This document shows positions 9,428-48,365 of a stretch of DNA of 64,000 bases, piece by piece. The DNA lies in NCBI GenBank assembly GCA_021555105.2, contig CP134604.1, positions 3,076,501 through 3,140,500 on the forward strand, given 5' to 3'. Within the stretch, counting starts at the first letter, position 1. Each line of letters opens with the position of its first letter. The notes beneath the pieces were generated by a model. That model did no database searches, had not been told where the DNA came from, and worked only from the letters and a program-made list of their open reading frames with translations. Source of the DNA: Thalassospiraceae bacterium LMO-JJ14. Lineage in GTDB: Bacteria; Pseudomonadota; Alphaproteobacteria; Rhodospirillales; Casp-alpha2. The translations under genes and the position numbers were made by a program.

Positions 9428-9577
9428 TCCCCCAGAAATAAGTGGAGCAGCACAAGCGGAGGTTTCCCTGCCCGCTTTGTGGTATTTCGCTTATCAGAAA
9501 TTTGTGCGTCGGTTATACATCATACATACTTGGTGAAACCTCAACCATCGCAACACTGGACAGGTCACAGATTAACG

Positions 9578-15034: not shown

Positions 15035-16141
15035 CTAGGGCAATTGTGCATCCGGACCTTGGTCTAATATGCCCTGAAGCCGCGCCTGCATATCGGCAAT
15101 CGGCAGTTCATAGCTGTCCCTATGGCGCGCCCTGAACAGCCGTGTTCTCGGATACCAGGGGCTGAAATCCACATTCATCATCCAGCGCCAATCCGGCACT
15201 TTCGGCAATAACACCCAGGCCGGTGTACCGATGGCGCCGGCCAAGTGCACAACCGCCGTATCGACGCTGATGACAAGGTCCAGACAAGTGATCAGTGCGG
15301 CGCTTTCCAGCATTTTGCCATGCGCCAAATCCAACTGTGCCGTAATCTCATCGTAGCTTTTAATACTCCCCGCAAATGCCGGATCATTCGCCGCTTCGCT
15401 GCCCTGGCCGACCTGAAGGCTGATCGCATTGATACCCGACGCCAACATCGGCTGGAACGCGCTTAACGGGACGGAACGTTCCGCATCGCGGGCGTGTGCC
15501 GGGTTCCCCTGCCAGACGAAGCCGACATTGAGTTGCCCGCCACTCAGCCGCGCGCGCCATTTCTCAACCAAGGCTTCGTCGACGGTAAGCCACGAAGCCT
15601 GCGGTATGGTTTCCGTGCCGGTCCTGAAAATCGCCGGCAAACTGAACGCATCGGCATAGATGTCAAAGGGCGGCGGCACTTGTTCGTATTCCATAATGCT
15701 GACACCGTCATGCGCCTCCAGACACCGGAACAGCTCCCTGAAGCCGACGAAAACAACCAGAACCACAGCCTTAAAACGCGGTGCCACCAGTGGGATGTAT
15801 CGCGCGCACATCAAAGCATCGCCGATCCCCTGATCGCAGGTCACGAGGAGTGTCTTTTCCCCTGCATCCTCCAACTCCAGTGAGGTACAATAAGGCTGCT
15901 TGAATTTGGCCGGCGCTTTTTCCTGATACACGAAATCCTGCAAACGCTGCATGAAATGCGGCCAGGCTTCCGCATACCTACCCTGACGCAGCAGAAACTG
16001 GGCATACATGTAATGTGCCATGTCGATGGCAGGTCGCCGACCGGCAAGCTGTCGATAGAGTTGCTCCGCTTCGAAAAATTCACCGGCATTTTCAAATCCG
16101 ACGGCGCGCTGTAAAGCGGCGGCAAGTTGCCTTGTGTTCAT
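15035..16141 (-). CDS. short TPR glycosyltransferase, GT9-like
   Basis: A 368-residue paralogue of the proteins at 12077, 19231 and 58829 with only one or two TPR-like helical pairs at the N-terminus (NTRQLAAALQRAVGFENAGE; MYAQFLLRQGRYAEAWPHFM). The catalytic half is complete: CDQGIGDALMCARYIPLV (about 120), VGFVWQGNPAHARDAERS (about 225), LDLVISVDTAVVHLAGAIG (about 300) and WYPRTRLFRA near the end. With so short a TPR region it may recognise its target differently from the longer paralogues. It most likely transfers a sugar in the cytoplasm; the donor is unknown. Confidence 0.78.
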   Translation of the reverse strand: MNTRQLAAALQRAVGFENAGEFFEAEQLYRQLAGRRPAIDMAHYMYAQFLLRQGRYAEAWPHFMQRLQDFVYQEKAPAKFKQPYCTSLELEDAGEKTLLVTCDQGIGDALMCARYIPLVAPRFKAVVLVVFVGFRELFRCLEAHDGVSIMEYEQVPPPFDIYADAFSLPAIFRTGTETIPQASWLTVDEALVEKWRARLSGGQLNVGFVWQGNPAHARDAERSVPLSAFQPMLASGINAISLQVGQGSEAANDPAFAGSIKSYDEITAQLDLAHGKMLESAALITCLDLVISVDTAVVHLAGAIGTPAWVLLPKVPDWRWMMNVDFSPWYPRTRLFRARHRDSYELPIADMQARLQGILDQGPDAQLP

Positions 16142-20740: not shown

Positions 20741-21886
20741 TTAACGGAAGAGACCCAGGATGCCCTGTTCTGCCTGACCAGCGAAGGCCAGAGCGGAAAT
20801 ACCGAGCTGCTGTCTGGTCTGCAGAGCGAGCAGGTTTGCACCTTCCTCGTTCAAATCGGCCAGTGTCAGCTTGCCGGAACCAATCTCAAGGGTGTTCACG
20901 TAGTCTTCCGTGAAGTCGAGACGGGTCTGAAGCAGAGCCACGTTTGAACCCAGCGTTTGCGAGCGTGCACGAAGGGTCGTCAGCGCCGAATCCAACTCCG
21001 TGATGATCGGATCGATCGTGGAGGTAACGCTCTCCGTTATATAGTTGGTGTTGTTGGCAGATACGTCGATTTTCGCGGTCGTACCGTGTGCCGTCGTGAC
21101 GAAGCCAGCCGTAGCACCGGTGACGTTGGCGGTCAGAACGCTAATCGTCAGAACCTGACCCTGCGTAATGGCCTGGGTGTCGATGGCCGACGTTGAATTG
21201 TTGGCGGCTACGATATTGAAGGAAGCCGTACCGTACTGAACGGAAAGCGAACTACCGGTATCAGACACCGTCACGCCGGTACCCTGATAGGTAACCGTGA
21301 TCGGGCCGCCACCGGAACCAACCTGCAAGCCGGTCAGGGCAGAAAAGTTGAAGGTCGTGTCCGTTGCAACAGCAACGTCGGCAAGGCCGAGACCGGTTTG
21401 GGTCGACTGCGCCGCGCTGATCGTCAGCAAGCTGGAAGTCTGATCGGAGAAGCTGACGGAAAGTGATTCCGTCGCGTTATCGATCAGGTTGGTCCCCTGA
21501 TAGCTGGCGTCAGCGGCCAACTCACCAATCTGCGATTTCAGTGTGCCGAACTGCGTGATCAAATCGGTAAACTGCGTACCGGTCGCCGACTTCAGAGATG
21601 ATGCAACACCTTTGAGCTGACGAACGATGGCTTCAATGCTTTCAAGACCACCGAGAGCCGCGGTAACCGTGCTGATCCCCTGGTCAATACCATCTTTCTT
21701 TTCGTTGAAGTCGAAAGCACGGTCATTCAGCGACTTCGCCTGGAAGAACGCGACCGGATCGTCAATGGCGCTTGCAACTTCAAGACCCGTGGACAGACGG
21801 CCCTGCGTCCGTTCAACGAGAGAGGTGGTGCTTTGCAGTGAGAGAAGGCTGCCACGTACGGCGGCTGAGAGGGTAATATCGCCCAT
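20741..21886 (-). CDS. fliC: flagellin
   Basis: A 381-residue filament subunit. The N-terminal D0/D1 helices (LSLQSTTSLVERTQGRLSTG; VASAIDDPVAFFQAKSLNDR, residues about 14-55) and the C-terminal helix (GANLLALQTRQQLGISALAF, ending ILGLFR) are typical of alphaproteobacterial flagellins. The central D2/D3 region (about 150-290) is rich in Ser, Thr and Gly, offering many sites for O-glycosylation. The symbol is generic; such genes are also called flaA or fljK. The leader upstream contains paired repeats that could hide the ribosome site, fitting control by FlbT. Maf, TPR-glycosyltransferases and nonulosonate genes surround it. Confidence 0.93.
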   Translation of the reverse strand: MGDITLSAAVRGSLLSLQSTTSLVERTQGRLSTGLEVASAIDDPVAFFQAKSLNDRAFDFNEKKDGIDQGISTVTAALGGLESIEAIVRQLKGVASSLKSATGTQFTDLITQFGTLKSQIGELAADASYQGTNLIDNATESLSVSFSDQTSSLLTISAAQSTQTGLGLADVAVATDTTFNFSALTGLQVGSGGGPITVTYQGTGVTVSDTGSSLSVQYGTASFNIVAANNSTSAIDTQAITQGQVLTISVLTANVTGATAGFVTTAHGTTAKIDVSANNTNYITESVTSTIDPIITELDSALTTLRARSQTLGSNVALLQTRLDFTEDYVNTLEIGSGKLTLADLNEEGANLLALQTRQQLGISALAFAGQAEQGILGLFR

Positions 21887-24598: not shown

Positions 24599-24838
24599 AT
24601 GGATGTTCAGAAAGAATATGACCGGGTATTCGTTGAAATATTCGAGATCGATGAGGAAAAGCTGAAGGAAAACCTCGAATTCAATTCCATTGAAACATGG
24701 GACTCGATCGGCCATTTGAGCCTGATCTCCGAACTCGAAGAATGCTTTGATATCAGCCTGGAAACCGACGACATCGTTGACTTCAGTTCGTACGAAAAAG
24801 GCAAAGAGATCTTAAAGAAATACGGGGTCGCGTTTTAA
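24599..24838 (+). CDS. acyl carrier protein
   Basis: A 79-residue acidic protein with the phosphopantetheine site WDSIGHLSLI, where Ser36 would carry the prosthetic group. The rest (LITS-like helices, ELEECFDISLETDDIVDFSS) fits a four-helix ACP. A clear CAGGAG precedes the start. It differs from housekeeping ACPs, which carry DSLDTVELV, and looks like a pathway-specific carrier of the type found in glycan or secondary-metabolite loci. It is the obvious partner for the acyl-AMP ligase, LuxE, LuxC, FabZ-like and SDR proteins encoded on the opposite strand at 29.7-34.6 kb. Confidence 0.85.
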   Translation: MDVQKEYDRVFVEIFEIDEEKLKENLEFNSIETWDSIGHLSLISELEECFDISLETDDIVDFSSYEKGKEILKKYGVAF

Positions 24839-25052
24839 AAGAAGACCAATACTCAGAACAGCTCGAAATATTGCTGGGTATGTTGTTGAGCGGTTATTGG
24901 ACATTCTTTTTAGAGACAAGAACTTGCTGAAATGCTAGGCTCCAACGTTGTTTGTTTTAAATGATTAAAAGTCGCGATACTGCGCCGGGGCCGAAAAGTA
25001 ATTCTGCCCATTGGAAACAACATCGAATGCTTATCTATACGGAGAAACCGTC

Positions 25053-26732
25053 ATGGCCAGCTTTCCTTCTACGACAGAACCGCAAGAGAACACTTGGGTT
25101 AGCGTAAAGCGTCAACAGACCCGCGAGCTAGATTCTCTGCCGATCATCGACCGTTCGCTGATCGATTACAGCAGGTATCATCAATTTATCGGCCATGCGG
25201 GCGTGAAGTACTCGATGGCGGTGCAGGCCACACGCGGTTGCCCGTACCGGTGCTTTTACTGTGACATCTATAAAACCACAGAATTCCATTTCCGCCGCTC
25301 CGATGAAAACCTGATCGATGAAATCAAGGTTCTCGCCGATCTCGGCGTCAAACGCGTTGAGTTCATCGACGACATATTCAACGTCAATTCCAAACAGTTC
25401 ATCCGCTTCTTTGAATTCGTGATCAAGAACAACCTGGACATGAAGTTCTTCTTCCCGACCGGCCTCAAGGGCGATCTGCTGACCAAGGACATGATCGACT
25501 TGATGGTGGAAGGCGGCTCAGTCGGTGTAAATCTGTCGCTCGAACACGCTGCGCCACGCATGCAGGAAGTCATGCGCAAAAACCTGAATGTCGATGTGCT
25601 GCACGAGAACCTGACGTACATCGCCAAGAACTATCCTCAAGTCATCATTACCCTGAATGCGATGCACGGGTTCCCGACGGAAACCGAAGATGAAGCCAAC
25701 ATGACGCTGGACTTCATCAAGAGTATCAACTGGATCGACTTCCCGTATCTGCACAATGTCCGGATTTTCCCGGGCACCGAATTGGAGCATTTCGCCCTCG
25801 AGGTCGGTGTGCCGCGTGAGATTATCGAGGCGTCACAGGATATGTCGTATCACGAGATCGCCCCCACGCTGCCGTTCTCACGTGAATTCACATCGGGCAT
25901 CCGCACCAAGTTCGTCCGCGACTATGTGCTGAACAAGGACCGCCTCAAAAGCGTTATCCCTCGCCAGCTCGAGCAGTTCAGCGTCGAGGAGCTGGACCAG
26001 AAGTACAACAGCTACTTCCCGACCAAGCGGATCACATCGCTTGCCGACGTGCTGAAGCTTGCCGGCCTTAAGTGGGAAGACGTCAAACCCGCCAAACAGT
26101 TTGATGAGGCAGATGTTGCAATCCCCAACATCTACTCGGATTGCAAAGAGAAATTCTCCGCACCGAAAAACCACAAGCCGGAAATCGATCTCCTGCTGAT
26201 CGACATGTCGTCCTATTTCAGCGATGACTTCGATAATCGCGAATACAATGTACTGGAACCGCCGCTCGGCCTGATGGCTCTGCAATCGTATGTGGATCGG
26301 GCTCTCGAAGGACGTGTCAGCGCCAAGTTGACCAAATCCCGCATTGATTTCGACAGCTTTGAAGAGCTGGTTGCCATGATCCGCGAACGCAACCCCGATC
26401 TTATCGGCTTCCGCGCCATGACGTTCTACAAAGGCTTCTTCCACGATGCCATCAAAGCCATTCGCGATGCCGGGATCGACACCCCGATCATTGCCGGCGG
26501 CCCGTATCCGACAGCATCCTACGAAGAAGTTCTGGCGAACGACGGCGTCACCATGGTTGCCATCGGCGAAGGTGAACAGACGCTTGTCGATGTCCTGCAG
26601 ATCATGCTCGAAAACGGCAACGAGCTGCCGGATCAGGAGCAACTCAAGACGTTGCCGGGAATAGCCTTCAAGATGGATATGATCCCGGGAACGGCGGCAC
26701 GCGGCCAAGAGCAAATGCACGCGCTTACGTAA
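25053..26732 (+). CDS. radical SAM protein with C-terminal B12-binding domain (swapped order)
   Basis: About 559 residues from the ATG at 25053, which has GGAGAAA just before it; a TTG at 25011 would add 14. It opens with a linker (TRELDSLPIIDRSLIDYSRY) that normally joins the B12 domain to the radical SAM domain, then RGCPYRCFYC (about residues 60-69) with the three cluster cysteines. The B12-binding fold comes last: PPLGLMALQSYVDRAL (about 410), AGGPYPTASYEEVLAN and VAIGEGEQTLVDVLQ, ending LPGIAF. In the usual family the B12 domain is N-terminal, and the linker here sits at the opposite end. The cobalamin-histidine motif is not evident. Likely a methyltransferase or rearrangement enzyme of the glycan or acyl pathway; substrate unknown. 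Confidence 0.78.
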   Translation: MASFPSTTEPQENTWVSVKRQQTRELDSLPIIDRSLIDYSRYHQFIGHAGVKYSMAVQATRGCPYRCFYCDIYKTTEFHFRRSDENLIDEIKVLADLGVKRVEFIDDIFNVNSKQFIRFFEFVIKNNLDMKFFFPTGLKGDLLTKDMIDLMVEGGSVGVNLSLEHAAPRMQEVMRKNLNVDVLHENLTYIAKNYPQVIITLNAMHGFPTETEDEANMTLDFIKSINWIDFPYLHNVRIFPGTELEHFALEVGVPREIIEASQDMSYHEIAPTLPFSREFTSGIRTKFVRDYVLNKDRLKSVIPRQLEQFSVEELDQKYNSYFPTKRITSLADVLKLAGLKWEDVKPAKQFDEADVAIPNIYSDCKEKFSAPKNHKPEIDLLLIDMSSYFSDDFDNREYNVLEPPLGLMALQSYVDRALEGRVSAKLTKSRIDFDSFEELVAMIRERNPDLIGFRAMTFYKGFFHDAIKAIRDAGIDTPIIAGGPYPTASYEEVLANDGVTMVAIGEGEQTLVDVLQIMLENGNELPDQEQLKTLPGIAFKMDMIPGTAARGQEQMHALT

Positions 26733-26762: not shown

Positions 26763-27842
26763 ATGCTCAAACCCTTATCGCTCAAGACACTGCCTGACGT
26801 CGCCGAGTTGGCTGCAAAGGTCTTCAAGCCCGGCTACATCTCGCTGCGTCCCGACTTCTTTGAGTGGCAGTTCGAAAAAGCTGCTGAATTATTCGGTGAC
26901 GGCAGCGATGGCGGCACGTGGATCAGCACGGACGACAATGATCGCGTCACCGGCATCTGGCTCTCGTCTATTCAGCCGATGTGGCTCGAAGGCAAGCCGT
27001 TCATGGGCTCGTGGGGGCATGACTGGTATGCCGACCCCGATATGATGGGCGGCGCGCTCCCGCTAATCATCGACCAGATTACCGCGCGTGGTGTATTCGG
27101 CGGTATGGGCGCCGGGATCGATTCCGTCGCCATCAAATCGCGTATCTTCAAATATCAATGGGTCGAGATGCGGCGCCTGTTTGGCGTGATCGATCCCGTG
27201 CAGACGCTGACGATGGTCAAAGGCGCACGGCCGAGTGCAAAGCTCTATCTGCGGATGATCTCCAAGTACCGGGATTCCTCATCCGTCGAAGCCAGCAAAA
27301 TCGACACTTTCGATGCCGCTTATGACGATGTCTGGGCGGCGATGCGCGACACCATCAGCTTCGGCACCAACCGGACCCAGGAATATATGAACTGGCGTTA
27401 TCGCGACAATCCGTTCATCGATTATCTACGCTATCGCTTCGACACACCGGACGGCCCGGCTTATTTCGTTTGGCGCTATGAAAAGTATGGCGATGCACCG
27501 CGTGTCGCCCGGATCGTCGAGGCCATCGGCTTACCTTCGGCCATCGCCGCGGCATATCCGGCGCTTGCGTCGATCCTTGCCGGCGATGACGTCGCGTTCT
27601 GCGATTATTACGGCACCCACGGCGAAACGATTTCAGGGCTGCTGTACGGCGGCATGCGGCAAATCGTGACGCTTGAGGAGTTTGATCTGCCCCGGTTGTT
27701 TTCGCCACTTGCCGATGATTTTCGCAAAACCATCAATCTTTCCGTTATCGTCACGCCGGAATATGACAAACCCTGGCTGTATGACATGAACAAGTGGCTG
27801 GTAACAAAGGGCGACGGCAACCAGGACCGCATCAATCCCTGA
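26763..27842 (+). CDS. GNAT-fold acyltransferase-like protein
   Basis: A 359-residue cytoplasmic protein. A central segment, TQEYMNWRYRDNPFIDYLRY (about residues 205-224), matches a motif common in large GNAT-like proteins of polysaccharide loci. The N-terminal part (MLKPLSLKTLPDVAELAAKV, FFEWQF) reads like a GNAT domain and GSWGHDWYADP would lie near its acyl-CoA site. It may transfer an acyl group, possibly one carried by the ACP encoded upstream, to an amino sugar; this is inference from context. It begins 30 bases after the radical SAM/B12 gene and converges on the transketolase operon with 13 bases between ends. Confidence 0.6.
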   Translation: MLKPLSLKTLPDVAELAAKVFKPGYISLRPDFFEWQFEKAAELFGDGSDGGTWISTDDNDRVTGIWLSSIQPMWLEGKPFMGSWGHDWYADPDMMGGALPLIIDQITARGVFGGMGAGIDSVAIKSRIFKYQWVEMRRLFGVIDPVQTLTMVKGARPSAKLYLRMISKYRDSSSVEASKIDTFDAAYDDVWAAMRDTISFGTNRTQEYMNWRYRDNPFIDYLRYRFDTPDGPAYFVWRYEKYGDAPRVARIVEAIGLPSAIAAAYPALASILAGDDVAFCDYYGTHGETISGLLYGGMRQIVTLEEFDLPRLFSPLADDFRKTINLSVIVTPEYDKPWLYDMNKWLVTKGDGNQDRINP

Positions 27843-27855: not shown

Positions 27856-28821
27856 CTACCCCAGCGCAGACTTGATGTCCCTGGCAATGAGCGCCGGTGT
27901 CAGGCCGTTAAATTCCAGAATATCGACATAAGCACCAGACTTGGCATAGGAATCGTCCAGGCCCAAAATCAGTTGCGCCGGGGCTTTGTCGATGGCCGAT
28001 TTAACCTCGGCAACGGCACTTCCCAGACCGCCGATCTTAGTATGCTCCTCGACGGTGACGATCAGTTTATGCGTGCCGCAAAGTGCTGTGATCTCGTCCC
28101 GGTCAATCGGCTTGATGGTATGCATGTTCACAACCGCTGCGGAAATCCCGTCTTCGGCAAGGTGTTCCGCCGCTTCAAGCGAAGCATTGACCATGGTGCC
28201 GGTGGCGATAATGGCAACATCGTCGCCGTCGCGCAGGCGGATGCTTTTCCCGATCTCGAAGTCATAATCGTCTTCGTAGACCATCGGGTTGGGCGTGCCG
28301 CCCGTCAGGCGGATATAGACGGGGCCCGGTGCATCCAGCGCGGCAGCCAGCGCCTTCAATGTTTCTCCGCAATCCGCCGGCGATAAAACCGTCAGATTGG
28401 GGATCGCCCGCATCACCGCCAGATCTTCGATACAGCAGTGCGAGTAGCCGAGTTGACCAAGCACAACGCCGCTGGCCAGACCGACAAATGTCACCTTGTG
28501 CTGCATATACCCCAAATTGACTTTGATCTGTTCACAACAGCGCATGGTCTGAAACGGCGCGAATGTCGCACAGACGGTATTCATCCCTTCGCTGGCGAGA
28601 CCCGCCGATATGGCCATGACGTTCTGCTCGGCGATGCCGACTTCCAGGTATTTTTCCGGGAAGGTCTTGCGGTAGCGGTCGAGGCCGGCCGACGTCGATG
28701 TATCGGCAGCCACGACGATCAGGTTGTCGCGGTCTTCCGCCATTTGCAGCAGGCCTAACCCGAAAGCCGCCCTGGACCCGATCCGCGACCATGCCTTCGC
28801 ATTGCGCTTGTCGATCTTCAT
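27856..28821 (-). CDS. transketolase-like subunit, C-terminal half (pyrimidine-binding)
   Basis: A 321-residue protein covering the pyrimidine-binding and C-terminal domains of transketolase. EVGIAEQNVMAISAGLASEG (about residues 56-75) contains the Glu that activates thiamine diphosphate, and LTVLSPADCGETLKALAAAL and later VEEHTKIGGLGSAVAE are typical. It forms a two-subunit enzyme with the product of the next gene; their reading frames overlap by 4 bases. Split transketolases outside central metabolism move two-carbon ketol units in sugar or secondary pathways. Here it sits in an operon with acyl activation and reduction genes. Confidence 0.88.
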   Translation of the reverse strand: MKIDKRNAKAWSRIGSRAAFGLGLLQMAEDRDNLIVVAADTSTSAGLDRYRKTFPEKYLEVGIAEQNVMAISAGLASEGMNTVCATFAPFQTMRCCEQIKVNLGYMQHKVTFVGLASGVVLGQLGYSHCCIEDLAVMRAIPNLTVLSPADCGETLKALAAALDAPGPVYIRLTGGTPNPMVYEDDYDFEIGKSIRLRDGDDVAIIATGTMVNASLEAAEHLAEDGISAAVVNMHTIKPIDRDEITALCGTHKLIVTVEEHTKIGGLGSAVAEVKSAIDKAPAQLILGLDDSYAKSGAYVDILEFNGLTPALIARDIKSALG

Positions 28822-29663
28822 GACGCATCCTCCCGGACGACGCCCAGTTCCTCGAGGCCTGCCTCGTATTGAATTTTCGTCAGAACCTTGTGATGCCAGT
28901 CGTTGTCACCCTCGGAGAACGAGAAGCCCTTGCCCTTGACCGTATGCGCGACAATGCACGTCGGCTGTTCGCCTCTGGGTGAAGTCAGCGCTTCCAGCAA
29001 GGCGCCGACATCATGACCGTCGATCTCCAGCGTACGCCAGCCGAAGGTGCTGAATTTCGCTGCGATATCACCGATCGGCATGATCTCTTCATTGCTGCCG
29101 GTCTGCTGAAATGTGTTCCGGTCGACAATGGCGACCAGGTTGGACAACTTGAAATTCGGCGCTGCCATGATCGCTTCCCAGTTCGACCCCTCGTTCAGTT
29201 CGCCATCGCCCAGGATCACATAAACGCTATAATCTCTGTTCCGCCGTTGTCCGGCGACCGCAACACCAATACCGAGCGAGAGCCCCATGCCGAGGCTCCC
29301 CGTTGAAAATTCGATACCTTTCTTGCGGTTCATCACCGGGTGGCCGAGCAAAATACTGCCGGTGGTCTCGAAACTCTGAATTTCCACTTGGCTGAGCAGG
29401 CCGATCTCGGCAAGTGCCGCGTAATACCCCAAACAACCGTGCCCCTTGGAGAGGATAAAGCGGTCGCGCGCATCCCATTCCGGGTTCTTCGGGTCATAGC
29501 GCATTACGGCGCCGAACAGCGACGCCATGATATCGACGATCGAGAGGCCGCCACCGAAGTGCGAACTGCTTGCGCCTGCGGCCAGCGACATATCCAGGAT
29601 CGTGCGGCGCATATTCCTGGCCATGTTCTCGACATGGGCTTTCTGCTCATTCATGGCATTCAT
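28818..29663 (-). CDS. transketolase-like subunit, N-terminal half (diphosphate-binding)
   Basis: A 281-residue protein with the thiamine-diphosphate site GDGELNEGSNWEAIMAAPNF (about residues 152-171) and FILSKGHGCLGYYAALAEIG (about 68-87), as in the first domain of transketolase. A catalytic-site histidine region, GHDVGALLEAL and HTVKGKGFSF, is also present. With the following subunit it would make a heterodimeric ketol transferase. An ATG one codon set later (MNEQ) is an alternative start. The gene follows the SDR by 5 bases. Confidence 0.88.
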   Translation of the reverse strand: MNAMNEQKAHVENMARNMRRTILDMSLAAGASSSHFGGGLSIVDIMASLFGAVMRYDPKNPEWDARDRFILSKGHGCLGYYAALAEIGLLSQVEIQSFETTGSILLGHPVMNRKKGIEFSTGSLGMGLSLGIGVAVAGQRRNRDYSVYVILGDGELNEGSNWEAIMAAPNFKLSNLVAIVDRNTFQQTGSNEEIMPIGDIAAKFSTFGWRTLEIDGHDVGALLEALTSPRGEQPTCIVAHTVKGKGFSFSEGDNDWHHKVLTKIQYEAGLEELGVVREDAS

Positions 29664-29668
29664 TCCGG

Positions 29669-30424
29669 TTACATTCCTCCATCCACGCTGAGCACCTGAC
29701 CGGTCATATAGGATGACAGGTCCGAAGCCAGAAACAGCGCCGCGCCGGCAATTTCCAAGGGTTCGCCGAGCCGCCCCAGCGCCGTGCCCGCCAGCGTCGC
29801 GTCAATTGCAGCGTCTTCCGTGCTGCCCCGCATCATATCCGTTTCCGTCAGGCCCGGCGCGATGGCATTGACGCGGATGTTTACCCCGCCCAGCTCTCGC
29901 GCCATGACTTTCGTCGCGGCAATAAGCGCCGCCTTGCTGGCGGCATATGCGGCACGTCCCTCGTTACCAAACACGGCCGCGCTTGAGGAAATGTTGATGA
30001 CGCTGCCCGATTTGTTGCGGAGCATCGCGCGCATCAGCGGTTGCGAGAAACCCATCTGCGAGATGAAATTGATATCCATCATGTTCCTGAACGTTTTGGC
30101 GGGTGTCATCAGAAAACTCGCGGTTTCAATCGCACCGGCATTGTTGACGATGACATCGATGGGAATCTTGTCGGCCAGAATTGCTTTCGTCGCCGCTTTC
30201 ACGGCAGCTTCGTCGACGAGATCGAAATACACCGGCTCGACCCTGACCTTGTGCTGAGTGGCCAGGTCACCAACGAAGCGCTCGAATTCATCCGTTTGCG
30301 TGCGTGCGCAAGCCCAGACATTCGCTCCCTCGGCGGCAAACAGCGAAACAATGGCCTGCCCGATACCACGGTTTGCGCCGGTAACGATTGTATTCTTGTC
30401 TTTCAGAAGCATGTGCGTTTCCAT
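29669..30424 (-). CDS. short-chain dehydrogenase/reductase (FabG-like)
   Basis: About 251 residues. It has the nucleotide-binding TGANRGIG (near residue 12), the NNAG structural motif, the catalytic serine in SVINISSSAAVFG and the YAASK catalytic pair, and ends with LASDLSSYMTGQVLSVDGG, all as in FabG-type 3-oxoacyl-ACP reductases. A GTG at 30439 that overlaps the FabZ-like stop is an alternative start. Given the ACP and FabZ-like neighbours it may reduce a 3-oxoacyl chain, but reduction of a sugar ketone or of the transketolase product is equally possible. Confidence 0.85.
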   Translation of the reverse strand: METHMLLKDKNTIVTGANRGIGQAIVSLFAAEGANVWACARTQTDEFERFVGDLATQHKVRVEPVYFDLVDEAAVKAATKAILADKIPIDVIVNNAGAIETASFLMTPAKTFRNMMDINFISQMGFSQPLMRAMLRNKSGSVINISSSAAVFGNEGRAAYAASKAALIAATKVMARELGGVNIRVNAIAPGLTETDMMRGSTEDAAIDATLAGTALGRLGEPLEIAGAALFLASDLSSYMTGQVLSVDGGM

Positions 30425-30435
30425 TCTTCGGCCAG

Positions 30436-30927
30436 TCACCCGCTCACTCTGAACTCTTCAATGATTTCCGGCAGGATCAGCGAGAATTCCGCACGGCACG
30501 CCAGTTCCCCGGCGACGGTGCCGGTACCTTCGAGCTTAGCAAGTCCGCGCTTGAATGAAATGACCCGTGTATCGATATCGAAACGATCCCCGGCAAGCAC
30601 CTTGCGCTTGAAGACCAGCTTGTCGGCTTTCGTCAGATAGCAGACTTTCCCCTTGTTGCCCGGCAGCGTCACCAGCGCAAGGGCCGACATCTGTACCAAC
30701 GCTTCGATCTGCAGCATACCGGGCATGTTCGGGTCGCCCGGAAAATGGCATTCGAAGAACCAGTCCGTCGACGCCAGATTCTTGTATCCGCGCGCACTCA
30801 CCCCGGGCACTACTTCCTCGGCAATATCGATCATAAGATAGGGAAAGCGGTTCTTCTGGTAGGCAAGAATATCATCCAGTTCCAGTCTGAGAGCGCTCCC
30901 CGCTCGTCCGGCATCATCTGTTTCCAA
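30436..30927 (-). CDS. FabZ-like 3-hydroxyacyl-ACP dehydratase
   Basis: A 163-residue hot-dog-fold protein. FECHFPGDPNMPGMLQIEAL (about residues 57-76) contains the catalytic His and Glu in the arrangement of FabZ (HFPGxPxMPG...EA). FPYLMIDIAEEVVPG matches the N-terminal strand. It is not the housekeeping fabZ, which lies between lpxD and lpxA, but a pathway copy between LuxC-like and SDR genes. Likely acts on a 3-hydroxyacyl group held on the cluster ACP. Confidence 0.82.
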   Translation of the reverse strand: METDDAGRAGSALRLELDDILAYQKNRFPYLMIDIAEEVVPGVSARGYKNLASTDWFFECHFPGDPNMPGMLQIEALVQMSALALVTLPGNKGKVCYLTKADKLVFKRKVLAGDRFDIDTRVISFKRGLAKLEGTGTVAGELACRAEFSLILPEIIEEFRVSG

Positions 30928-30939
30928 TGGCCAGCCTCC

Positions 30940-32139
30940 TTATAAAATACTGATCACACGTGAAAGCTGGCGAACGATATCATTGCCGTCCCAGACCAGA
31001 TCCATCTCCAGCGCCCGGCCGACAGGCACCAGACGATCGAAACCGACAAGCCGCTGGCCGACAACGAACGATGACAGTTCGTCCTTGGAGAAACCAAAAT
31101 ACGTCAAGGTCTGGAACTTCGGGCGAATGGCATCGACGATATCGTCGAGCGCCGCAACCGTGTACTCGAAAAACATTCCGTACCGCCCGCGCGCCGTCTC
31201 AAGCTCAGCCGGCAACGCATTCAAATTCAGCCGCACCACATCTATACCGTCGCTGACGATATGCGTTACTTCGTTGACGTTGATGACAGAGGACATCGTC
31301 GCCACCAGCTTGTCGACCGCCTGTCCCGCCTCAAGTTCATAAGTCCTACCTACATACTGTCTCACCGCCGGCCAGAACCGTTCACCGGCGGCATCCGGAT
31401 TATCGCCCGTCCAGATAACGATCTGTGGAGATGAACAGGCATTCTGATCCAGTACATAGGTGTCATTGAAAAAATTGCGGGCCAGACGGTTCATATCCTC
31501 ATCAGGCAAGCTCAGAACGCTTTCGGCATTCAGCACACACAATGAATAGCGGTCGCCAAAGCACAGATCCATGCACCGGCTGGCGGCGGGGATAGCGCGG
31601 ATTTCATTCACCGTCGCATCGCCGCCCCAAATGACGCGGGCATCGGCAAGCGCGGAAAAGCCGGCCGTGATTGCGCTGCCGCGCGGATAGCTGACAATTG
31701 CCGTTTCCTGCGCAAGTTCGGCAAAACGGTCTTCGCTCAGCACATCGCGAATGGCGTCGATCAGGGCAATTGCCTGTGGCGCAAGTGCCGACGGCACCCG
31801 GACAACGTTGGCATTCCCGGCCAACAGCCCCATGACGAGTGAGAATGCGAAATTCACCGGCACATTCGAGGGTGCGATGTGAAACGCAAGCCCCCGGCCA
31901 AGGCGAACCTGTCCGTCATCGTATGCCTGTTTCAGACGCGTGAGGTTTGCCTCGCGGCACCAAAACGCAAATGTCGCCAGATCGGGATAGGCCTTGGTCG
32001 CGGCGCGCCCGCGTAGCAGCTTCGAAAGCGCGCCTATGAATTCACACGCCAGCGCATCGAACGGCGGACGCGGCCGCGCCGACAGAGACGGGCCGCCTAC
32101 AAGGTAATCGACGCCTTCATCAGGAAGTGAACGTATCAC
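30940..32139 (-). CDS. LuxC-like acyl-CoA/acyl-protein reductase
   Basis: A 399-residue aldehyde-dehydrogenase-fold protein of the LuxC family. The probable active cysteine is C235 in LDQNACSSPQ; HIAPSNVPVNFAFSLVMGLL (about residues 87-106) and IPAASRCMDLCFGDRYS fit LuxC. LuxC reduces an activated fatty acyl group to the aldehyde with NADPH. Its start overlaps the LuxE-like gene by 20 bases, repeating the LuxC-LuxE partnership of bioluminescence operons, yet no luciferase genes are present. The aldehyde would therefore serve another purpose, such as an acceptor for the transketolase. Confidence 0.85.
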   Translation of the reverse strand: MIRSLPDEGVDYLVGGPSLSARPRPPFDALACEFIGALSKLLRGRAATKAYPDLATFAFWCREANLTRLKQAYDDGQVRLGRGLAFHIAPSNVPVNFAFSLVMGLLAGNANVVRVPSALAPQAIALIDAIRDVLSEDRFAELAQETAIVSYPRGSAITAGFSALADARVIWGGDATVNEIRAIPAASRCMDLCFGDRYSLCVLNAESVLSLPDEDMNRLARNFFNDTYVLDQNACSSPQIVIWTGDNPDAAGERFWPAVRQYVGRTYELEAGQAVDKLVATMSSVINVNEVTHIVSDGIDVVRLNLNALPAELETARGRYGMFFEYTVAALDDIVDAIRPKFQTLTYFGFSKDELSSFVVGQRLVGFDRLVPVGRALEMDLVWDGNDIVRQLSRVISIL

Positions 32140-33205
32140 TGCACCCCCTTACTTCTGCTTGGCGCACACGGCCATGAATAGCAAATGTCTTGCCGAGCCT
32201 GCCGCATGGGCAGTCGTCAACACCGAGCCATTCGCCGATGTCTTCCGTAATCAGGACATGGCCTGGATAACTGGACGGCAGCAGCGAGACCAATTCGACG
32301 AGCCCTTTTTCGCCCTGTCCGCATTCCGAGAAATCGTTCCCCCGGATCACGATATCGGAAAAGATCGAGCTGTGCAGACGCCCGGCTTCGCATTCCATGA
32401 AAATCGAGCCCGTCTGTTCGACCATGCCGTAGTAATTATGCACCCGCTCGATCCCGGTAACGTCGGCCAGGCGCGCCTTGAAAGCGTCATTGTCCACGGC
32501 GATGTCGGCCAACTTCTTCCAGCCGCCGCCATGTATCAGAATGCCTTGTTCGAAGGGCAGCTTCAGTCCCTTCTCCGCCAGCGCTTCGATCAGGTGCAGA
32601 AAGACGATCGACGTAAAGCCGAAAAGCAGTACCGGTCCGCCTTTGTGCTTCTCAGAAAACGCTTCGATCGCGGCCATATCCAGCGCCATGTTTTCATCTA
32701 GGGCATAGGTCACATCGCGCCCGAACATGGAAAACCCGATGATCCCCGCCCCCCGTGCTGAAAAATGCCGGCGGTCCTTGACCACCGAAGCGGAATCGAT
32801 CACCAGCATCGGCAAGCGTTGCGGACCGATGAAATCACCGACGATCTTCGACAGAACCTTGGTCTGCATGACTGCCGCCGTTTGATCGAGAAATATTTTC
32901 GAGACTGCTTGTCCGGATGTGCCGGACGACGTCAGGGTTTTGACGATATCGGCAGGCGGCACGCTCATCAGCTCGAAATCCTTGAACAGGCGAACCGGAA
33001 GATATGGATATTCGCGCGTCGTATGCATAACCGACGGATCGAACCCGAGTGCATCGAGGATACGCCGATATTGCCCGCACCCTGCGTAATGATGGCGCGT
33101 CAGATCGCCAAGCGCCTCGCCGAACAGGCTGTCCTTGTCCGGTTGGGCCATTGAAAATGGCGGCAGATCAATGACGGCGGCAAGATCAAACATATCGTGC
33201 GCCAT
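32120..33205 (-). CDS. LuxE-like acyl-protein synthetase
   Basis: A 361-residue member of the LuxE/PaaK adenylating family. TLTSSGTSGQAVSKIFLD (about residues 89-106) is the ATP/AMP-binding loop, VIDSASVVKDRRHFSARGAG and HNYYGMVEQTGSIF (about 258) follow, and CPCGRLGKTFAIHGRVR lies near the end. LuxE activates a fatty acid as acyl-AMP and hands it as a thioester to the LuxC reductase. It overlaps both neighbours by 20 bases, implying coupled translation of ligase, LuxE and LuxC. A separate AMP ligase next door suggests either two acids or two steps, activation to the ACP and transfer to LuxC. Confidence 0.85.
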   Translation of the reverse strand: MAHDMFDLAAVIDLPPFSMAQPDKDSLFGEALGDLTRHHYAGCGQYRRILDALGFDPSVMHTTREYPYLPVRLFKDFELMSVPPADIVKTLTSSGTSGQAVSKIFLDQTAAVMQTKVLSKIVGDFIGPQRLPMLVIDSASVVKDRRHFSARGAGIIGFSMFGRDVTYALDENMALDMAAIEAFSEKHKGGPVLLFGFTSIVFLHLIEALAEKGLKLPFEQGILIHGGGWKKLADIAVDNDAFKARLADVTGIERVHNYYGMVEQTGSIFMECEAGRLHSSIFSDIVIRGNDFSECGQGEKGLVELVSLLPSSYPGHVLITEDIGEWLGVDDCPCGRLGKTFAIHGRVRQAEVRGCSDTFTS

Positions 33206-34616
33206 CTCCGCCGGCCGGTAATTTCGGATACGCTATTTTCCCGGCGCTGTTGCGCGGCAGCACATCGATTTCAGACACACTGTAACCACGCGGGTGCAGG
33301 GTCGTGATTTCACCGATCAGGTCACCGACTTTCGTGACCGCGCCGCCATCTGCGACATAGACCTGCATATGCCCATCTTCGCCGACACACGCGCAATCGA
33401 ACCCGGCGGCACAAAGCTGGCGCTCGATCTCGTCCAGGTTGACGCGATGGCCGTATATTTTCAGAAACCTCTTCTTGCGCCCGACGATACTCATGTAGCC
33501 GTCTTCATCACGAACGGCGATATCCCCCGTTGCGATGACACCCCGATTGTCATCCCCCCGGCCAAGATCGGCGCGGCTAACCGCATAGCCCATGCTGACG
33601 TTGGCCCCTTCGTACATCAGCTCGCCTGCCGTGCCTGGCGCAGATATCTCATCGCCGGATTCGTCTGCAAGCCACATCCGGCCACCCGGAATGGCGATGC
33701 CGATACTCCCCGCCTTGTCGCGGGCACGCGCCGCCGGGACATAGGAAATCCGGGCCGTCGCTTCGGTCTGGCCATACATCGCCACGAATAGCACCCCCTT
33801 TTCCGCGCACGTATCGATCATGTCATGCATAAGATCGATTGGCATCCGTCCCCCGGCCTGCGTGATATAACGCAAGCCCGATATGTCCATCTTTGCGAAC
33901 CTGAGCTTTTTCAATAGCTCATAAATGAATGGAACGCCGCCAAAACTTGTAATGGCGCTGGCATGAAACGTATCCCAGAAGGAGCGCGCCATGATCCCGT
34001 CTTCTGTCAGCACCACCGACGCACCGGCGGACAGATGCGTATTCAGGATCGAAAGACCGTACGAATAGCTCATCGGCATGGTCGTGATCGTGCGCTCTGC
34101 GGGCGTGATCCCCAGATACTCGTTGATCTGTTGCGTATTCGCATGGATGTTGTCAAAGGACAGGCGGACGAAATTATGACTGCCGGTGGTCCCCGATGTC
34201 GAAAGCAGCACGGCCAGATCATCGTGCGGCGCCCCGCCCCCCTTGGTGGCACCGGCAACGAGCTGATAGCCGCCAAAATGTGCGATCACCGCAGCATCGG
34301 CAAAGCTTTTGGCCGCATCATCCGGCAAGAAGAGATACTCCGGCCTGAAGGCGTCAATAATCCCCAGAAGCTGGTTCGCCTTGATCGTATGATGCACCAG
34401 CATCTGCGCGCGCCCGGCCCGCATCAGACCGGTGTAGGCCGCAACGCAATCCGTTTCATTTCGGCACAGAACGAGCGTCAGGGTTTCGGGCGCGACATGG
34501 CGCGCAATTTCATCGCCCCTTGCTTTGAGCGTACGATATGAGGACTGAACACCACGATCAATTAAGGCGATTGCGTCTGGCCAGCGCTCGAAAGCATCAA
34601 AAATCGATTTCCGCAT
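33186..34616 (-). CDS. AMP-dependent acyl-CoA/acyl-ACP ligase
   Basis: A 476-residue adenylate-forming enzyme with the ordered core motifs: LLSTSGTTGSHNFVRLS (A3, about residue 137), MYGQTEATARISY (A5, about 280), TGDIAVRDEDGYMSIVGRKK (A7-A8, about 362) and NSAGKIAYPKL with the A10 lysine near the end. It would activate a carboxylic acid with ATP and load it on CoA or the cluster ACP. The acid cannot be predicted. It follows the radical SAM/SPASM gene by 36 bases and overlaps the LuxE-like gene. Confidence 0.87.
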   Translation of the reverse strand: MRKSIFDAFERWPDAIALIDRGVQSSYRTLKARGDEIARHVAPETLTLVLCRNETDCVAAYTGLMRAGRAQMLVHHTIKANQLLGIIDAFRPEYLFLPDDAAKSFADAAVIAHFGGYQLVAGATKGGGAPHDDLAVLLSTSGTTGSHNFVRLSFDNIHANTQQINEYLGITPAERTITTMPMSYSYGLSILNTHLSAGASVVLTEDGIMARSFWDTFHASAITSFGGVPFIYELLKKLRFAKMDISGLRYITQAGGRMPIDLMHDMIDTCAEKGVLFVAMYGQTEATARISYVPAARARDKAGSIGIAIPGGRMWLADESGDEISAPGTAGELMYEGANVSMGYAVSRADLGRGDDNRGVIATGDIAVRDEDGYMSIVGRKKRFLKIYGHRVNLDEIERQLCAAGFDCACVGEDGHMQVYVADGGAVTKVGDLIGEITTLHPRGYSVSEIDVLPRNSAGKIAYPKLPAGGDGARYV

Positions 34617-35969: not shown

Positions 35970-37085
35970 ATGATCATCAAAGATCGGCGGTTAAATTCAC
36001 AAGGTTTTTCGTGGCAATCGCTTTATGCTAAGGACGAGCGAGAGCAGAACGGCTTTTTGCAAGGGTTTCAGGTGCACACTCCATCTTCATTTTATGGCGA
36101 CGGCGTCTTCATTATCGCCGAAGTCGGCAACAATCACGAAGGCGACTTCGCCCTTGCCCAGGAAATGGTCGGACTCGCCGCCGAAACCGGTGTCGATGCG
36201 GTCAAATTCCAGACCATCGTCCCCGAGCGCTTCGTCAAACGCAGCGACGAGCCGCGCTTTTCCACACTCAAGAAGTTCGAATTCAGCTACGACCAGTTCA
36301 GTCAGCTTTCAAAACAGGCCCATGCGGCCGGTCTCAAATTCATGTCGACACCTTTCGACCTGGAAAGCGCGGCCTTCCTCGGCAGCATCTGCGATGCAAT
36401 CAAGATCGCATCCAGCGACAACACCTTCTATGCCTTGATCGAAGAAGCGGCGAAAACGACACTGCCGCTGGTGATCTCGACCGGACTTGCGAACGAGGCG
36501 GAAATCCGCATCGCCGTTAGGACCGTCGATGATATCTGGGACGGCAAGCGGCTGCCGATTGATCTCGGGCTTTTGCATTGCGTAAGCAATTACCCTACCG
36601 ACCCCGTGAACGCCAATATCGCCGCCATATCCACAATCGCGAAAAATTTCCCCAGGCGCACACCCGGTTATTCCGATCACACCATTGGTATTGATGCGGC
36701 GAAGCTTGCCGTAGGCGCTGGTGCCAGGATCATCGAAAAGCATTTCACCATCGCCAACGATCATTCCGACTTCCGCGACCATCAGTTATCCGCCGACCCC
36801 CGGACCATGAAACGGCTGGTCGAGGAAATCCGTGCCGCAGAAGCCATGCTCGGGGACGGGCAGATCGAAATGGCGGATTGCGAAAAGGACATTGCGCCAC
36901 AGATCCGGCGTTCCATCGTCGCTGCGCGCAGGCTCGAGGGCGGTCATACAGTCGGCCGCGACGACCTGAACTGGACCCGTCCCGGCACCGGCATGCCCCC
37001 CGGCCGGGAGCAGGATATCATCGGCCGGAAGCTCAAGTCGCCGATGGCCGAGGGCGATCCTTTCACACCCAGCAACCTGATCTGA
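35970..37085 (+). CDS. NeuB-family nonulosonic acid synthase
   Basis: A 371-residue enzyme that would condense phosphoenolpyruvate with a six-carbon amino sugar to a nine-carbon acid (sialic, legionaminic or pseudaminic type). FIIAEVGNNHEGDFALAQEM (about residues 47-66) and VDAVKFQT are the NeuB N-terminal barrel motifs; GYSDHTIGIDAAKLAVGAGA and IIEKHFT are the usual metal and substrate segments; the final 60 residues (RRSIVAARRLEGGHTVGRDD) are the SAF antifreeze-like domain that closes the partner site. The first 40 residues are extra. It starts the sugar operon and is followed closely by asnB. The precise product cannot be read from sequence. Confidence 0.9.
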   Translation: MIIKDRRLNSQGFSWQSLYAKDEREQNGFLQGFQVHTPSSFYGDGVFIIAEVGNNHEGDFALAQEMVGLAAETGVDAVKFQTIVPERFVKRSDEPRFSTLKKFEFSYDQFSQLSKQAHAAGLKFMSTPFDLESAAFLGSICDAIKIASSDNTFYALIEEAAKTTLPLVISTGLANEAEIRIAVRTVDDIWDGKRLPIDLGLLHCVSNYPTDPVNANIAAISTIAKNFPRRTPGYSDHTIGIDAAKLAVGAGARIIEKHFTIANDHSDFRDHQLSADPRTMKRLVEEIRAAEAMLGDGQIEMADCEKDIAPQIRRSIVAARRLEGGHTVGRDDLNWTRPGTGMPPGREQDIIGRKLKSPMAEGDPFTPSNLI

Positions 37086-37095: not shown

Positions 37096-38925
37096 ATGTG
37101 TGGCATCGCCGGTGCGTTCGGCCCCCAGCCCACCGACGCCCAGCGCATCCACGGCGCGCTCGCCAGCATGCGTCATCGGGGCCCGGATGCCGAAGCGGCG
37201 GCAAATTATACGCTCGGCGAAAACCATATCAGCCTGCTGCATACCCGCCTCGCCATCATTGATCTTGATCCCCGCGCCAACCAGCCGTTTGAACGCGACG
37301 GCATCGCACTGACCTACAACGGCGAAATCTATAACTACGTCGAACTTCGCGATGAGCTGACCTCGCTCGGACATAGTTTCAGCACAGCATCAGATACCGA
37401 GGTACTTATCGAAGCCTATAGGGAATGGGGGCCTGCGTTTCTCGACCGGCTCGACGGTATGTGGGCGTTCGCGCTTTTCGATCGTACTACCTCGGAGCTG
37501 ATCTTGAGCCGTGACCGTTTCGGCGAAAAACCGCTCTATACGTGGTTTGTCGGCGACACGCTCTATTTCGCCTCGGAAATCAAAACGCTGACGGCACTGG
37601 TGGGACGCAAACCACCGGTCAATACGGAACAACTGCGCCGCTATCTCGTCAACGGATACAAGTGCCTGGGCAAAAGCGGGCAGACATATTTCGAAGGCGT
37701 GAGTGCATTGCCCAGCGGCAGTTGCGCAATCATGCAAACCCCGGCACGACCGGCCCCGGCGCCTTATTGGCGGCTTGCCATGGACACCCGCGAGACCTCA
37801 TTCGAAGATGCCGTCGCTCATGCCAAAAGCCTGCTTATCCGCGCTGTCGAAACCCGGATGCGTGCCGATGTACCGCTTGCCTTCTGCCTTTCCGGCGGTG
37901 TCGATTCTGCAACGCTCGCCGCCATTGCGGCCAAGAACATGGGCCACGACATTCATTGTTTCTCGATCATCGACAGTGATGAACGTTATGACGAAAGCGC
38001 CAACATAGACATCATGGTCCGGCATCTCGACTGCCGGCATCACCGGGTCCAAACATCGACGGAAGGATTTTTCGAGCGGCTCAGAGCGCAGGTTGCGGCT
38101 CATGACGCGCCCGTCGTCACCATCAGCTATTACATGCATGCGTTCCTGTCCGAAGCGATTGCCGAGAACGGTTACAAAATCGCCATTTCCGGCACGGCTG
38201 CGGATGAAATCTTCACTGGCTATTACGATCATTATTCGATGTGGCTGGCGGCGATGCATGACACCCCCGGCGTGGACTTCGAGGCCCTGGTCGGTGCTTG
38301 GAAATCGGGTATGGGCGCCTTTGTTCAGAACCCGGGGCTTCAGGACCCGTTATGCTTCGTCAAGAACCCCGACCAGCGCGATCACATTACGCTCGACCGC
38401 GCGCTTTTTTCCTCGTTTCTGACTGAACCGTTTTCCGAATCCTGGTCGGAAGACAACTATACCGATGCACTGCTCAGAAACCGCATGGCGAACGAATTGT
38501 TCACCGAAGCCGTTCCTGTGATTTTGAACGAGGACGATCTGAACTCGATGATGTTCTCGATCGAGAACCGCTCGCCATTCCTAGACCGGGCGCTGGTCGA
38601 ATATCTGTACTCGGTGCCGGCACGCCATCTCATGGGAGGTGGCTATGCAAAACGCATCCTGCGCGAAATCGGCGCCGGGATCGTTCCCGATCAGGTCCGT
38701 CTTGATACCCGAAAGCGCGGCTTCAATGCCTCGATCAACTCGCTTGTCGACCGGAATGACCCGGAAACCCGGGAAATTCTGCTCAGCGAGAGCCCGATCT
38801 TCGACATCGTCAAACGTAGCGCCATCGAAGAATTCCTGAACGGCGACATGGCATCCAACAGCTTCTCGAAATTCCTTTTCAGCTTTATCTCGTCAAAGCT
38901 GTTCCTGGAAACCCAGGCACAATGA
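37096..38925 (+). CDS. asparagine synthase (glutamine-hydrolysing) family amidotransferase
   Basis: A 609-residue AsnB-type protein. Cys2 in MCGIAGAFG is the glutaminase nucleophile, and RHRGPDAEA and YNGEIYN are class II amidotransferase motifs. The synthetase domain has CLSGGVDSATLAAIAA (about residues 261-276), the ATP pyrophosphatase loop. In a glycan locus such proteins amidate a carboxyl group of a sugar acid rather than aspartate, so amidation of a nonulosonic or uronic acid is a reasonable guess. It begins 10 bases after the neuB-type gene and overlaps the next by 4 bases. Confidence 0.88.
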   Translation: MCGIAGAFGPQPTDAQRIHGALASMRHRGPDAEAAANYTLGENHISLLHTRLAIIDLDPRANQPFERDGIALTYNGEIYNYVELRDELTSLGHSFSTASDTEVLIEAYREWGPAFLDRLDGMWAFALFDRTTSELILSRDRFGEKPLYTWFVGDTLYFASEIKTLTALVGRKPPVNTEQLRRYLVNGYKCLGKSGQTYFEGVSALPSGSCAIMQTPARPAPAPYWRLAMDTRETSFEDAVAHAKSLLIRAVETRMRADVPLAFCLSGGVDSATLAAIAAKNMGHDIHCFSIIDSDERYDESANIDIMVRHLDCRHHRVQTSTEGFFERLRAQVAAHDAPVVTISYYMHAFLSEAIAENGYKIAISGTAADEIFTGYYDHYSMWLAAMHDTPGVDFEALVGAWKSGMGAFVQNPGLQDPLCFVKNPDQRDHITLDRALFSSFLTEPFSESWSEDNYTDALLRNRMANELFTEAVPVILNEDDLNSMMFSIENRSPFLDRALVEYLYSVPARHLMGGGYAKRILREIGAGIVPDQVRLDTRKRGFNASINSLVDRNDPETREILLSESPIFDIVKRSAIEEFLNGDMASNSFSKFLFSFISSKLFLETQAQ

Positions 38926-39641
38926 GCACTGTTTGCATCATACAGGCGCGCCATACCTCAACCCGTTTGCCGGGCAAGATGATCCTGCCGCTCTGTGGCG
39001 TGCCGGTCATTGAACACATCATCAACCGTGCACGCAGCGTTACAGAAATCGACCGCATCTGCGTGACGATCCCCGAAGGAGACGCCCAAGCGCCGTTGGC
39101 CGACTTCCTTGCTCGGTTCAAAGATGTCCACATCTCACGCGGACCCGAGGAACACCTGCTGACCCGCTTTGCCATCGCCGCAGATGAAACCGGCGCCGAT
39201 ATCGTCGTCAGGCTTTGGGGCGATTGTCCGGCCATCGATCCTGCCGTCATCCGCCGACTGCTCGGGACTTTCTCGCATGAAGGCGCGGACTGGGCATATC
39301 TGAGCGGTAAAAGCGGCTATCCGCTCGGATACGAATGCCAGGCGATCCGTGCCGCCGCGCTGCAATCGGCGAACCGGGAAGCCGTTGATCCCGCCGACCT
39401 TGAATACCTGCATTCCTATTTCGACAAGTTTCCCGAACGATTTTCAAAATCCGATATACGCAGACCCGGCTTTACCGGCGATACGGCAAGTGCGTTGCAG
39501 ATGCTTCTGGACACGCATGAAGATTATCGGAATTTACAAGCCATCTTTGCTACACTTTACCCGGGCAATCCGATGTTCGGATTGTCCGAAGTCGAGGCTC
39601 TGGCGGCGAGGGAACCGTCACTTTTTGCCGCGCCATCTTAA
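38922..39641 (+). CDS. SpsF-type cytidylyltransferase (first of three)
   Basis: A 239-residue nucleotidyltransferase. The N-terminus IIQARHTSTRLPGKMILPLC is the CTP-binding motif of the CTP_transf_3 family in its SpsF form (ARxxSTRLPGK), and VRLWGDCPAIDPAVI (about residue 90) holds the metal-binding Asp. It would couple CTP to a sugar acid such as the NeuB product. Two further paralogues lie at 48366 and 50356, so more than one activated sugar may be made. It is translationally coupled to asnB through ATGA. Confidence 0.85.
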   Translation: MSTVCIIQARHTSTRLPGKMILPLCGVPVIEHIINRARSVTEIDRICVTIPEGDAQAPLADFLARFKDVHISRGPEEHLLTRFAIAADETGADIVVRLWGDCPAIDPAVIRRLLGTFSHEGADWAYLSGKSGYPLGYECQAIRAAALQSANREAVDPADLEYLHSYFDKFPERFSKSDIRRPGFTGDTASALQMLLDTHEDYRNLQAIFATLYPGNPMFGLSEVEALAAREPSLFAAPS

Positions 39642-48349: not shown

Positions 48350-48365
48350 GGCCTTAGGAAACGCA

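Follow-up and report, generated by a model that had tools for sequence, protein, structure and literature searches.

A split transketolase (TK) of a distinct clade is linked, in several bacterial phyla, to genes for a LuxE-like synthetase and a LuxC-like reductase, a pair predicted to convert an acyl group to an aldehyde. The case analyzed here is a seven-gene operon of Thalassospiraceae bacterium LMO-JJ14, at positions 27,856 to 34,616 of a 64,000-nucleotide stretch of contig CP134604.1 (hereafter the window). We propose, with a probability of about 0.55 and by analogy with described chemistry, that the TK joins a two-carbon ketol to a LuxC-derived aldehyde, yielding a hydroxylated acyl group that would decorate the nonulosonate of flagellin. 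The initial annotation had suggested the LuxC aldehyde as the TK acceptor. This is supported by the linkage of the TK to LuxE/LuxC, by the loss of its sugar-phosphate acceptor residues and by the precedent of AziC5/C6 in azinomycin biosynthesis, whereas the substrate, the product and the order of the reactions are conjectural.

The seven minus-strand open reading frames (ORFs) are present as first described, and each matches its expected Pfam family. They are transcribed in the order AMP-binding ligase, LuxE, LuxC, FabA/FabZ-like dehydratase, short-chain dehydrogenase/reductase (SDR), Transketolase_N and Transket_pyr plus Transketolase_C, with intergenic gaps of -20, -20, +12, -4, +5 and -4 bp. 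A radical S-adenosylmethionine (SAM)/SPASM gene on the same strand, 36 bp upstream of the ligase gene, probably opens the operon; copies that are 72 to 82% identical adjoin the cassette in other alphaproteobacteria. The catalytic residues are intact throughout the operon: the Cys of LuxC, the Cys of LuxE, the Lys of the ligase, the His and Glu of FabZ, the Tyr of the SDR, and the Glu and thiamine diphosphate (ThDP) motif of the TK. Three of them are invariant among cassette sequences, namely the LuxC Cys (77/77), the C-terminal LuxE Cys (78/78) and the ligase Lys (68/68). Because the same set of genes recurs across phyla, it lies far beyond chance occurrence.

Fatty aldehyde synthesis of the bioluminescence type was considered and rejected. 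The scores are far under the equivalog cutoffs (38 versus 750 bits for LuxC, 54 versus 550 bits for LuxE), and family scans of the window ORFs revealed no linkage to the luciferase genes luxAB and the thioesterase gene luxD. Judged by their sequences, the two genes are thus not bioluminescence genes. As had been claimed, neither a ketosynthase nor a luciferase is found among the main ORFs of the window. The absence of a ketosynthase does not extend to the whole family, since FabH occurs in 14 of 80 related loci.

These 80 named loci were collected by scanning for LuxC with a three-row alignment, as a seven-row alignment was too divergent for scanning. They comprise the ligase in 69 cases, an acyl carrier protein (ACP) in 63, the SDR in 58, the N-terminal TK half (TKN) in 28 and the C-terminal half (TKC) in 30, and the TK halves lie less than 10 kb from LuxC in 28 of them. 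TKN and TKC adjoin each other, usually with the SDR alongside. TKC is directly followed by LuxE-LuxC in two loci (L069 and L095) and adjoins a LuxE gene in two genomes (G366 and G443). Wherever TK and LuxE share a contig in the genomes selected for LuxC, they are within approximately 9 kb of each other; in three further genomes (G253, G289 and G291) the two genes are on different contigs.

We used a profile of cassette TKCs to look at this linkage from the side of the TK. In 20 LuxC genomes the profile separated cassette-type proteins (at least 412 bits) from ordinary split TKs (at most 343 bits). Among 291 Clostridia genomes, five had a TKC above 400 bits, the next group scoring at most 367 bits. 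Each of the five has a LuxE gene on its own contig at a distance of 2 bp to 5 kb, whereas just 11 of the 291 genomes carry LuxE at all (hypergeometric p = 7e-7, with the center genome excluded and relatedness ignored, a value that overstates the evidence because two of the remaining four genomes are close relatives). In the class of a Rhodocyclaceae genome (G294), that genome is the only one with a cassette TK and LuxE is present in 4 of 350, which adds no further test of linkage. The initial annotation was to be abandoned if the TK halves accompanied unrelated pathways; in our samples of three classes, no TK of the cassette clade was seen without LuxE/LuxC, while LuxC often occurs without TK. 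The co-occurrence search thus ties the TK specifically to the LuxE/LuxC aldehyde module. The TK needs LuxE/LuxC and LuxC does not need the TK, an asymmetry expected if the TK consumes the product of LuxC.

In a tree of 77 TKC sequences, all 36 cassette TKCs form one clade (SH-aLRT support of 100), apart from 41 other TKs. This clade contains Pseudomonadota, Bacillota, Planctomycetota, Fidelibacterota and Myxococcota, and the taxonomy is mixed inside it. On the LuxC tree, the presence of TK is scattered, with 19 changes compared with a shuffled mean of 23. We discarded the idea that LuxC specificity tracks the TK, as the clustering is weak (21 to 25 of 500 shuffles were as low) and some "no TK" labels reflect contig ends (L017, L019 and L042).

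The TK of the window has both chains, the ThDP motif (GDG...N), the conserved His residues and the catalytic Glu, and its TKN has the split TK 6yak as its best solved relative. A housekeeping TK was rejected, with two full-length TKs and another split TK elsewhere in the genome. In human TK, H416, D424 and R474 hold the phosphate and hydroxyls of the sugar substrates. We take these residues to correspond to H461, D469 and R520 of Escherichia coli TK. Their equivalents are absent from the TKC of the window and from every cassette TKC, while the catalytic Glu, the ThDP motif and the donor-side and cofactor His residues are kept. Because the predicted sugar-phosphate acceptor residues are lacking in both the window protein and its cassette relatives, we do not class this enzyme as a pentose-phosphate TK. 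Pocket positions tune the acceptor in the E. coli enzyme, in which D469T admits propanal, and H100L admits pyruvate as the donor (PMC10787763). The equivalent of H100 is retained in nearly all cassette TKNs, which by sequence comparison favors a hydroxylated two-carbon donor. If the TK consumes the LuxC aldehyde, it would define a natural TK family that already differs at the acceptor positions targeted in protein engineering, which is useful for biocatalysis. We also considered the loss of acceptor residues as a signature unique to the cassette and dropped it: the loss is common to several alphaproteobacterial split TK groups, and the gap in bit scores and the clade discriminate instead. One common group of alphaproteobacterial split TKs (among them L104, L107, L110, L112, L115, L121 and L124 to L126) carries an APLGxTH motif where the residues for sugar-phosphate acceptors would be.

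The split TK of Carboxydothermus hydrogenoformans (6yaj/6yak; matches of 211 and 217 bits) has the same two-chain architecture and accepts non-sugar aldehydes with hydroxypyruvate. Unlike the cassette TK, it retains the acceptor residues H, D and R. The closest chemical precedent lies in azinomycin biosynthesis, in which the split TK AziC5/C6 extends an acid-derived semialdehyde by two carbons (PMC9570651). As described, AziC3/C4 and AziC5/C6 convert an activated carboxylate to an aldehyde and then add two carbons, and the operon likewise links a TK to an acid-to-aldehyde module. However, azinomycin activation is performed by a kinase and an acyl-phosphate reductase rather than LuxE/LuxC, and the product is an antitumor compound, not a surface glycan. 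By analogy with AziC5/C6, carboligation of the LuxC aldehyde appears somewhat better than an even bet as the role of the split TK, and is its most likely use.

We infer the following route, including its order, donor, product and flagellin target. The end product of the operon would be an acyl group, short and oxygenated, destined for a surface sugar. The AMP ligase would activate an acid and load it on the ACP, LuxE would form an acyl-enzyme thioester, and LuxC would reduce it to an aldehyde. With a ketose phosphate or hydroxypyruvate as the donor, the split TK might then transfer a two-carbon ketol to this aldehyde, and the C-C bond so formed would give a hydroxyketone. The SDR encoded next to the TK would reduce an intermediate, and FabZ would dehydrate one. 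An acyltransferase would put the acyl group on the CMP-nonulosonate, which Maf would add to flagellin. Because the ligase and LuxE both activate a carboxylate, a dicarboxylic or hydroxy acid is the probable substrate, of which one end would be reduced and extended and the other would finish as a thioester. The coexistence of the two enzymes suggests either a substrate with two carboxylates or one acid that is activated twice in succession.

Several observations weigh against this proposal. Other alphaproteobacterial split TKs, not known beside LuxC, are also without the acceptor residues, whose loss is therefore no guide to which substrate is used. Since the missing Arg and His contact the phosphate of ketose donors as well, the donor is uncertain. 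The scheme does not assign the SDR and FabZ to particular steps. The mutual exclusion of TK and an alternative ThDP enzyme, described below, has a p value of only 0.01. Finally, most cassette relatives are located away from flagellin, in other, apparently surface-sugar, clusters, and flagellin is thus a local target or context rather than the general one.

Alternatively, the acceptor of the TK might be a surface-glycan keto- or aldo-sugar, with hydroxyacetyl transfer giving a branched or extended sugar and LuxE/LuxC separately making an acyl substituent. A split TK has been proposed to act on a keto-sugar in miharamycin and amipurimycin biosynthesis (PMC12247030), YerE-type ThDP enzymes branch lipopolysaccharide sugars, and the locus is a sugar cluster that also holds epimerase/dehydratase and Gfo/Idh enzymes. 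We nevertheless find this unlikely: the TK tracks LuxE/LuxC and not nucleoside diphosphate (NDP)-sugar dehydratases, the Epimerase-type family being present in 11 loci, of which 6 have TK and 5 do not, and the TK and LuxE-LuxC genes are contiguous in several loci. A glycolyl-type two-carbon acyl unit made by the split TK on the ACP with no aldehyde ligation, as reportedly formed by NapB/NapD of naphthyridinomycin, would agree with the grouping of TK halves, ACP and acyl-handling enzymes. It would leave LuxE/LuxC without a role, and family scans found no lipoyl/E2 domain in the cluster, making this explanation very improbable.

The tetronate genes of Vibrio cholerae O1 (rfbK-rfbO/wbe) indicate how such a cassette might work with no carboligation. 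They also comprise a carrier protein and an AMP ligase and place an acyl group on an amino sugar. RfbN is presumably a LuxE/LuxC-like protein, and we know of no TK among these genes. Their product, 2,4-dihydroxybutanoate, differs in having no chain extension. In a pathway of this kind, LuxE/LuxC would reduce a carboxylate, e.g., that of malate, the SDR would form the alcohol and the ligase would load the hydroxy acid on the ACP, with the TK restricted to an upstream role in supplying or modifying a precursor. The O1 ligase, WbeL/RfbL, activates 2,4-dihydroxybutanoate for coenzyme A or the carrier RfbK (PMC12208996, PMC3441752). Such a simpler pathway probably exists in loci that have neither TK nor the alternative ThDP enzyme: 18 of 19 well-flanked loci of this type consist of the cassette plus the SDR, and 17 of those are without FabZ or FabH. 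The window has an SDR that could form an alcohol, but it also has a dedicated TK, and this pathway would not explain a TK clade tied to LuxE/LuxC and would leave FabZ unused. For the operon, we consider it doubtful, rather more so than a keto-sugar substrate.

That alternative ThDP enzyme resembles acetolactate synthase. It replaces the TK in 9 of the 80 loci, and the two never occur together (p = 0.01). Among the 44 loci flanked on both sides by 7.5 kb or more, TK was present in 21, the acetolactate-synthase-like enzyme in 4 and neither in 19. On the LuxC tree, some sister groups differ in which of the two they have, as with L051 (ThDP enzyme) versus L067 (TK), and L054 (ThDP enzyme) versus L055, L062 and L063 (TK). 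We tentatively suggest, at a little under even odds, that LuxE/LuxC aldehyde formation coupled to an interchangeable C-C bond-making ThDP enzyme, either the dedicated split TK or the acetolactate-synthase-like protein, is a widespread, horizontally spread and undescribed acyl-chain route for surface glycans in at least five phyla. A trio of FabZ, the acetolactate-synthase-like enzyme and NeuB recurs beside LuxE/LuxC (L051, L084, L050, L096, L054, L077 and L028); its NeuB may condense phosphoenolpyruvate with a non-sugar aldehyde.

The combination of genes had been called unusual. This holds for the split TK, which is new, but the set of ACP, ligase, LuxE, LuxC, FabG and FabZ genes beside flagellin and nonulosonate genes has already been described in Aeromonas and Enterobacteriaceae. 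Group II flagellin islands of Aeromonas contain an ACP, a 3-oxoacyl-ACP reductase, an AMP synthetase, luxE and luxC (PMC7874193), and approximately 70 to 80 enterobacterial strains have Acp, LuxE, LuxC, the CaiC ligase and FabG, one of them with FabZ (PMC4875605). The window shares with them the ACP, AMP ligase, LuxE, LuxC and FabG located beside flagellin and nonulosonate genes. It differs by its split TK and two radical SAM genes; no TK was described in those islands. In Shewanella, the ThDP enzyme gene sfmB and the SDR gene sfmC are needed for normal flagellin modification, with an added moiety of C9H16O7 (PMC3765264). The sfmABCDE operon thus resembles ours by its NeuB, ThDP enzyme and FabG-like SDR, and the extra moiety is O-methylated. 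Nevertheless, its ThDP enzyme is a single-chain IlvB-type protein, it has no LuxE/LuxC, and its chemistry is putative. A TK-LuxE link, or a TK in a flagellin-island cassette, was not found in the open-access literature, which is weak evidence of novelty. The operon therefore joins a known acyl cassette to a dedicated TK clade, with its biochemical precedent in a different pathway, and neither the product nor the partnership of LuxE/LuxC with TK seems to have been described before. The flagellin-island papers file LuxC, LuxE, ACP and the ligase under "fatty acid synthesis" and suggest that a liposugar is made. If the TK consumes the LuxC aldehyde, ThDP chemistry would instead yield a group that is short and polyhydroxylated, and the masses to look for in flagellin, O-antigen and capsule would change accordingly. 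A few purified proteins and a mass spectrometer would suffice for a direct test.

That the product decorates flagellin had also been proposed. The operon indeed lies between flagellin, a tetratricopeptide repeat (TPR) protein and Maf on one side and the NeuB/CMP-sugar cluster on the other. Synteny in two other alphaproteobacterial genomes, whose TKs are 67 to 74% identical to those of the window, is consistent with this target, although the wider family is mostly found elsewhere. A Kordiimonadales locus groups FabZ-SDR-TKN-TKC, the B12-radical SAM gene, ACP, radical SAM, ligase, LuxE, LuxC, NeuB, a TPR protein and three flagellins. The corresponding genes of Rhodospirillaceae UBA4479 are distributed over two contigs, with TPR and Maf genes beside the TK contig. 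The ACP that was called dedicated recurs with the cassette in relatives, but in the window it is encoded outside the operon, on the opposite strand and 3 kb away. It matches the ACP model weakly (25 bits versus a cutoff of 66), and the serine of the DSxxH motif is invariant in cassette ACPs (62/62).

Table 1. Features of the operon and its surroundings in the window
Positions	Strand	Feature	Basis
27856..28821	-	Split TK C-terminal half (TKC), cassette type; pyrimidine-binding and C domains	PF02779 + PF02780, residues, clade
28818..29663	-	Split TK N-terminal half (TKN), ThDP-binding	PF00456
29669..30439	-	FabG-like SDR	PF13561 (adh_short_C2); catalytic Tyr present
30436..30927	-	FabZ-like hydroxyacyl dehydratase	PF07977; His/Glu present
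30940..32139	-	LuxC-like reductase, catalytic Cys235 in QNACSSP	PF05893, 100 bits; alignment
32120..33205	-	LuxE-like acyl-protein synthetase; C-terminal acyl-accepting Cys in RGCSD	PF04443, 171 bits
33186..34616	-	AMP-forming acyl ligase, presumed ACP loader	PF00501, 154 bits
34653..35780	-	Radical SAM/SPASM protein	PF04055 + SPASM
35970..37085	+	NeuB-family nonulosonate synthase, first gene of divergent CMP-sugar cluster	PF03102 + SAF; NeuB/PseI models
26763..27842	+	Family-less protein, candidate GNAT-like N-acyltransferase	Guess from sequence motifs only
25011..26732	+	Radical SAM protein with C-terminal B12-binding domain	Pfam
24599..24838	+	Cassette ACP, phosphopantetheine Ser in DSIGH	Weak NCBIfam ACP match
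20741..21886	-	Flagellin, presumed final glycan target	PF00669 + PF00700
17273..19234	+	Maf-type flagellin glycosyltransferase	PF20157 + PF01973; NCBIfam PseD-type domain
9479-11536, 12077-13780, 15035-16141, 19231-20616, 58829-60394		TPR/glycosyltransferase-like proteins	

The second radical SAM gene is a recurrent partner in alphaproteobacterial and Pelagibacteraceae loci and has relatives of similar length in L150 and L151 (545 to 564 residues, 68 to 76% identical). Its radical SAM domain (residues 73 to 236) comes before the B12-binding domain (residues 427 to 528). In the known B12 radical SAM models, the B12 domain precedes the radical SAM domain. The candidate acyltransferase downstream has no Pfam or NCBIfam match and no homologue among the locus genes by phmmer, and its single-sequence structure model was uninformative (predicted local distance difference test score of 34).

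The NeuB/CMP-sugar cluster includes an acetamidino-type HisH/HisF/WbuX set. Three cytidylyltransferase genes (38922-39641, 48240-49064 and 50356-51090) and two DegT aminotransferase genes within approximately 12 kb suggest that this one flagellin locus uses at least two sugars activated with CMP or NDP. Around the flagellar genes, five TPR proteins have C-terminal glycosyltransferase-like domains (GT41 or GT9-like) and are possible flagellin glycosyltransferases besides Maf. Both ends of the window are flanked by flagellar hook and rod genes. A 704-codon open frame (53946-56060, minus strand) is antisense to fliK (53961-55766, plus strand), in the region of maximal AT skew of the window (0.365 at 54 to 56 kb), and is probably a by-product of biased fliK codons.

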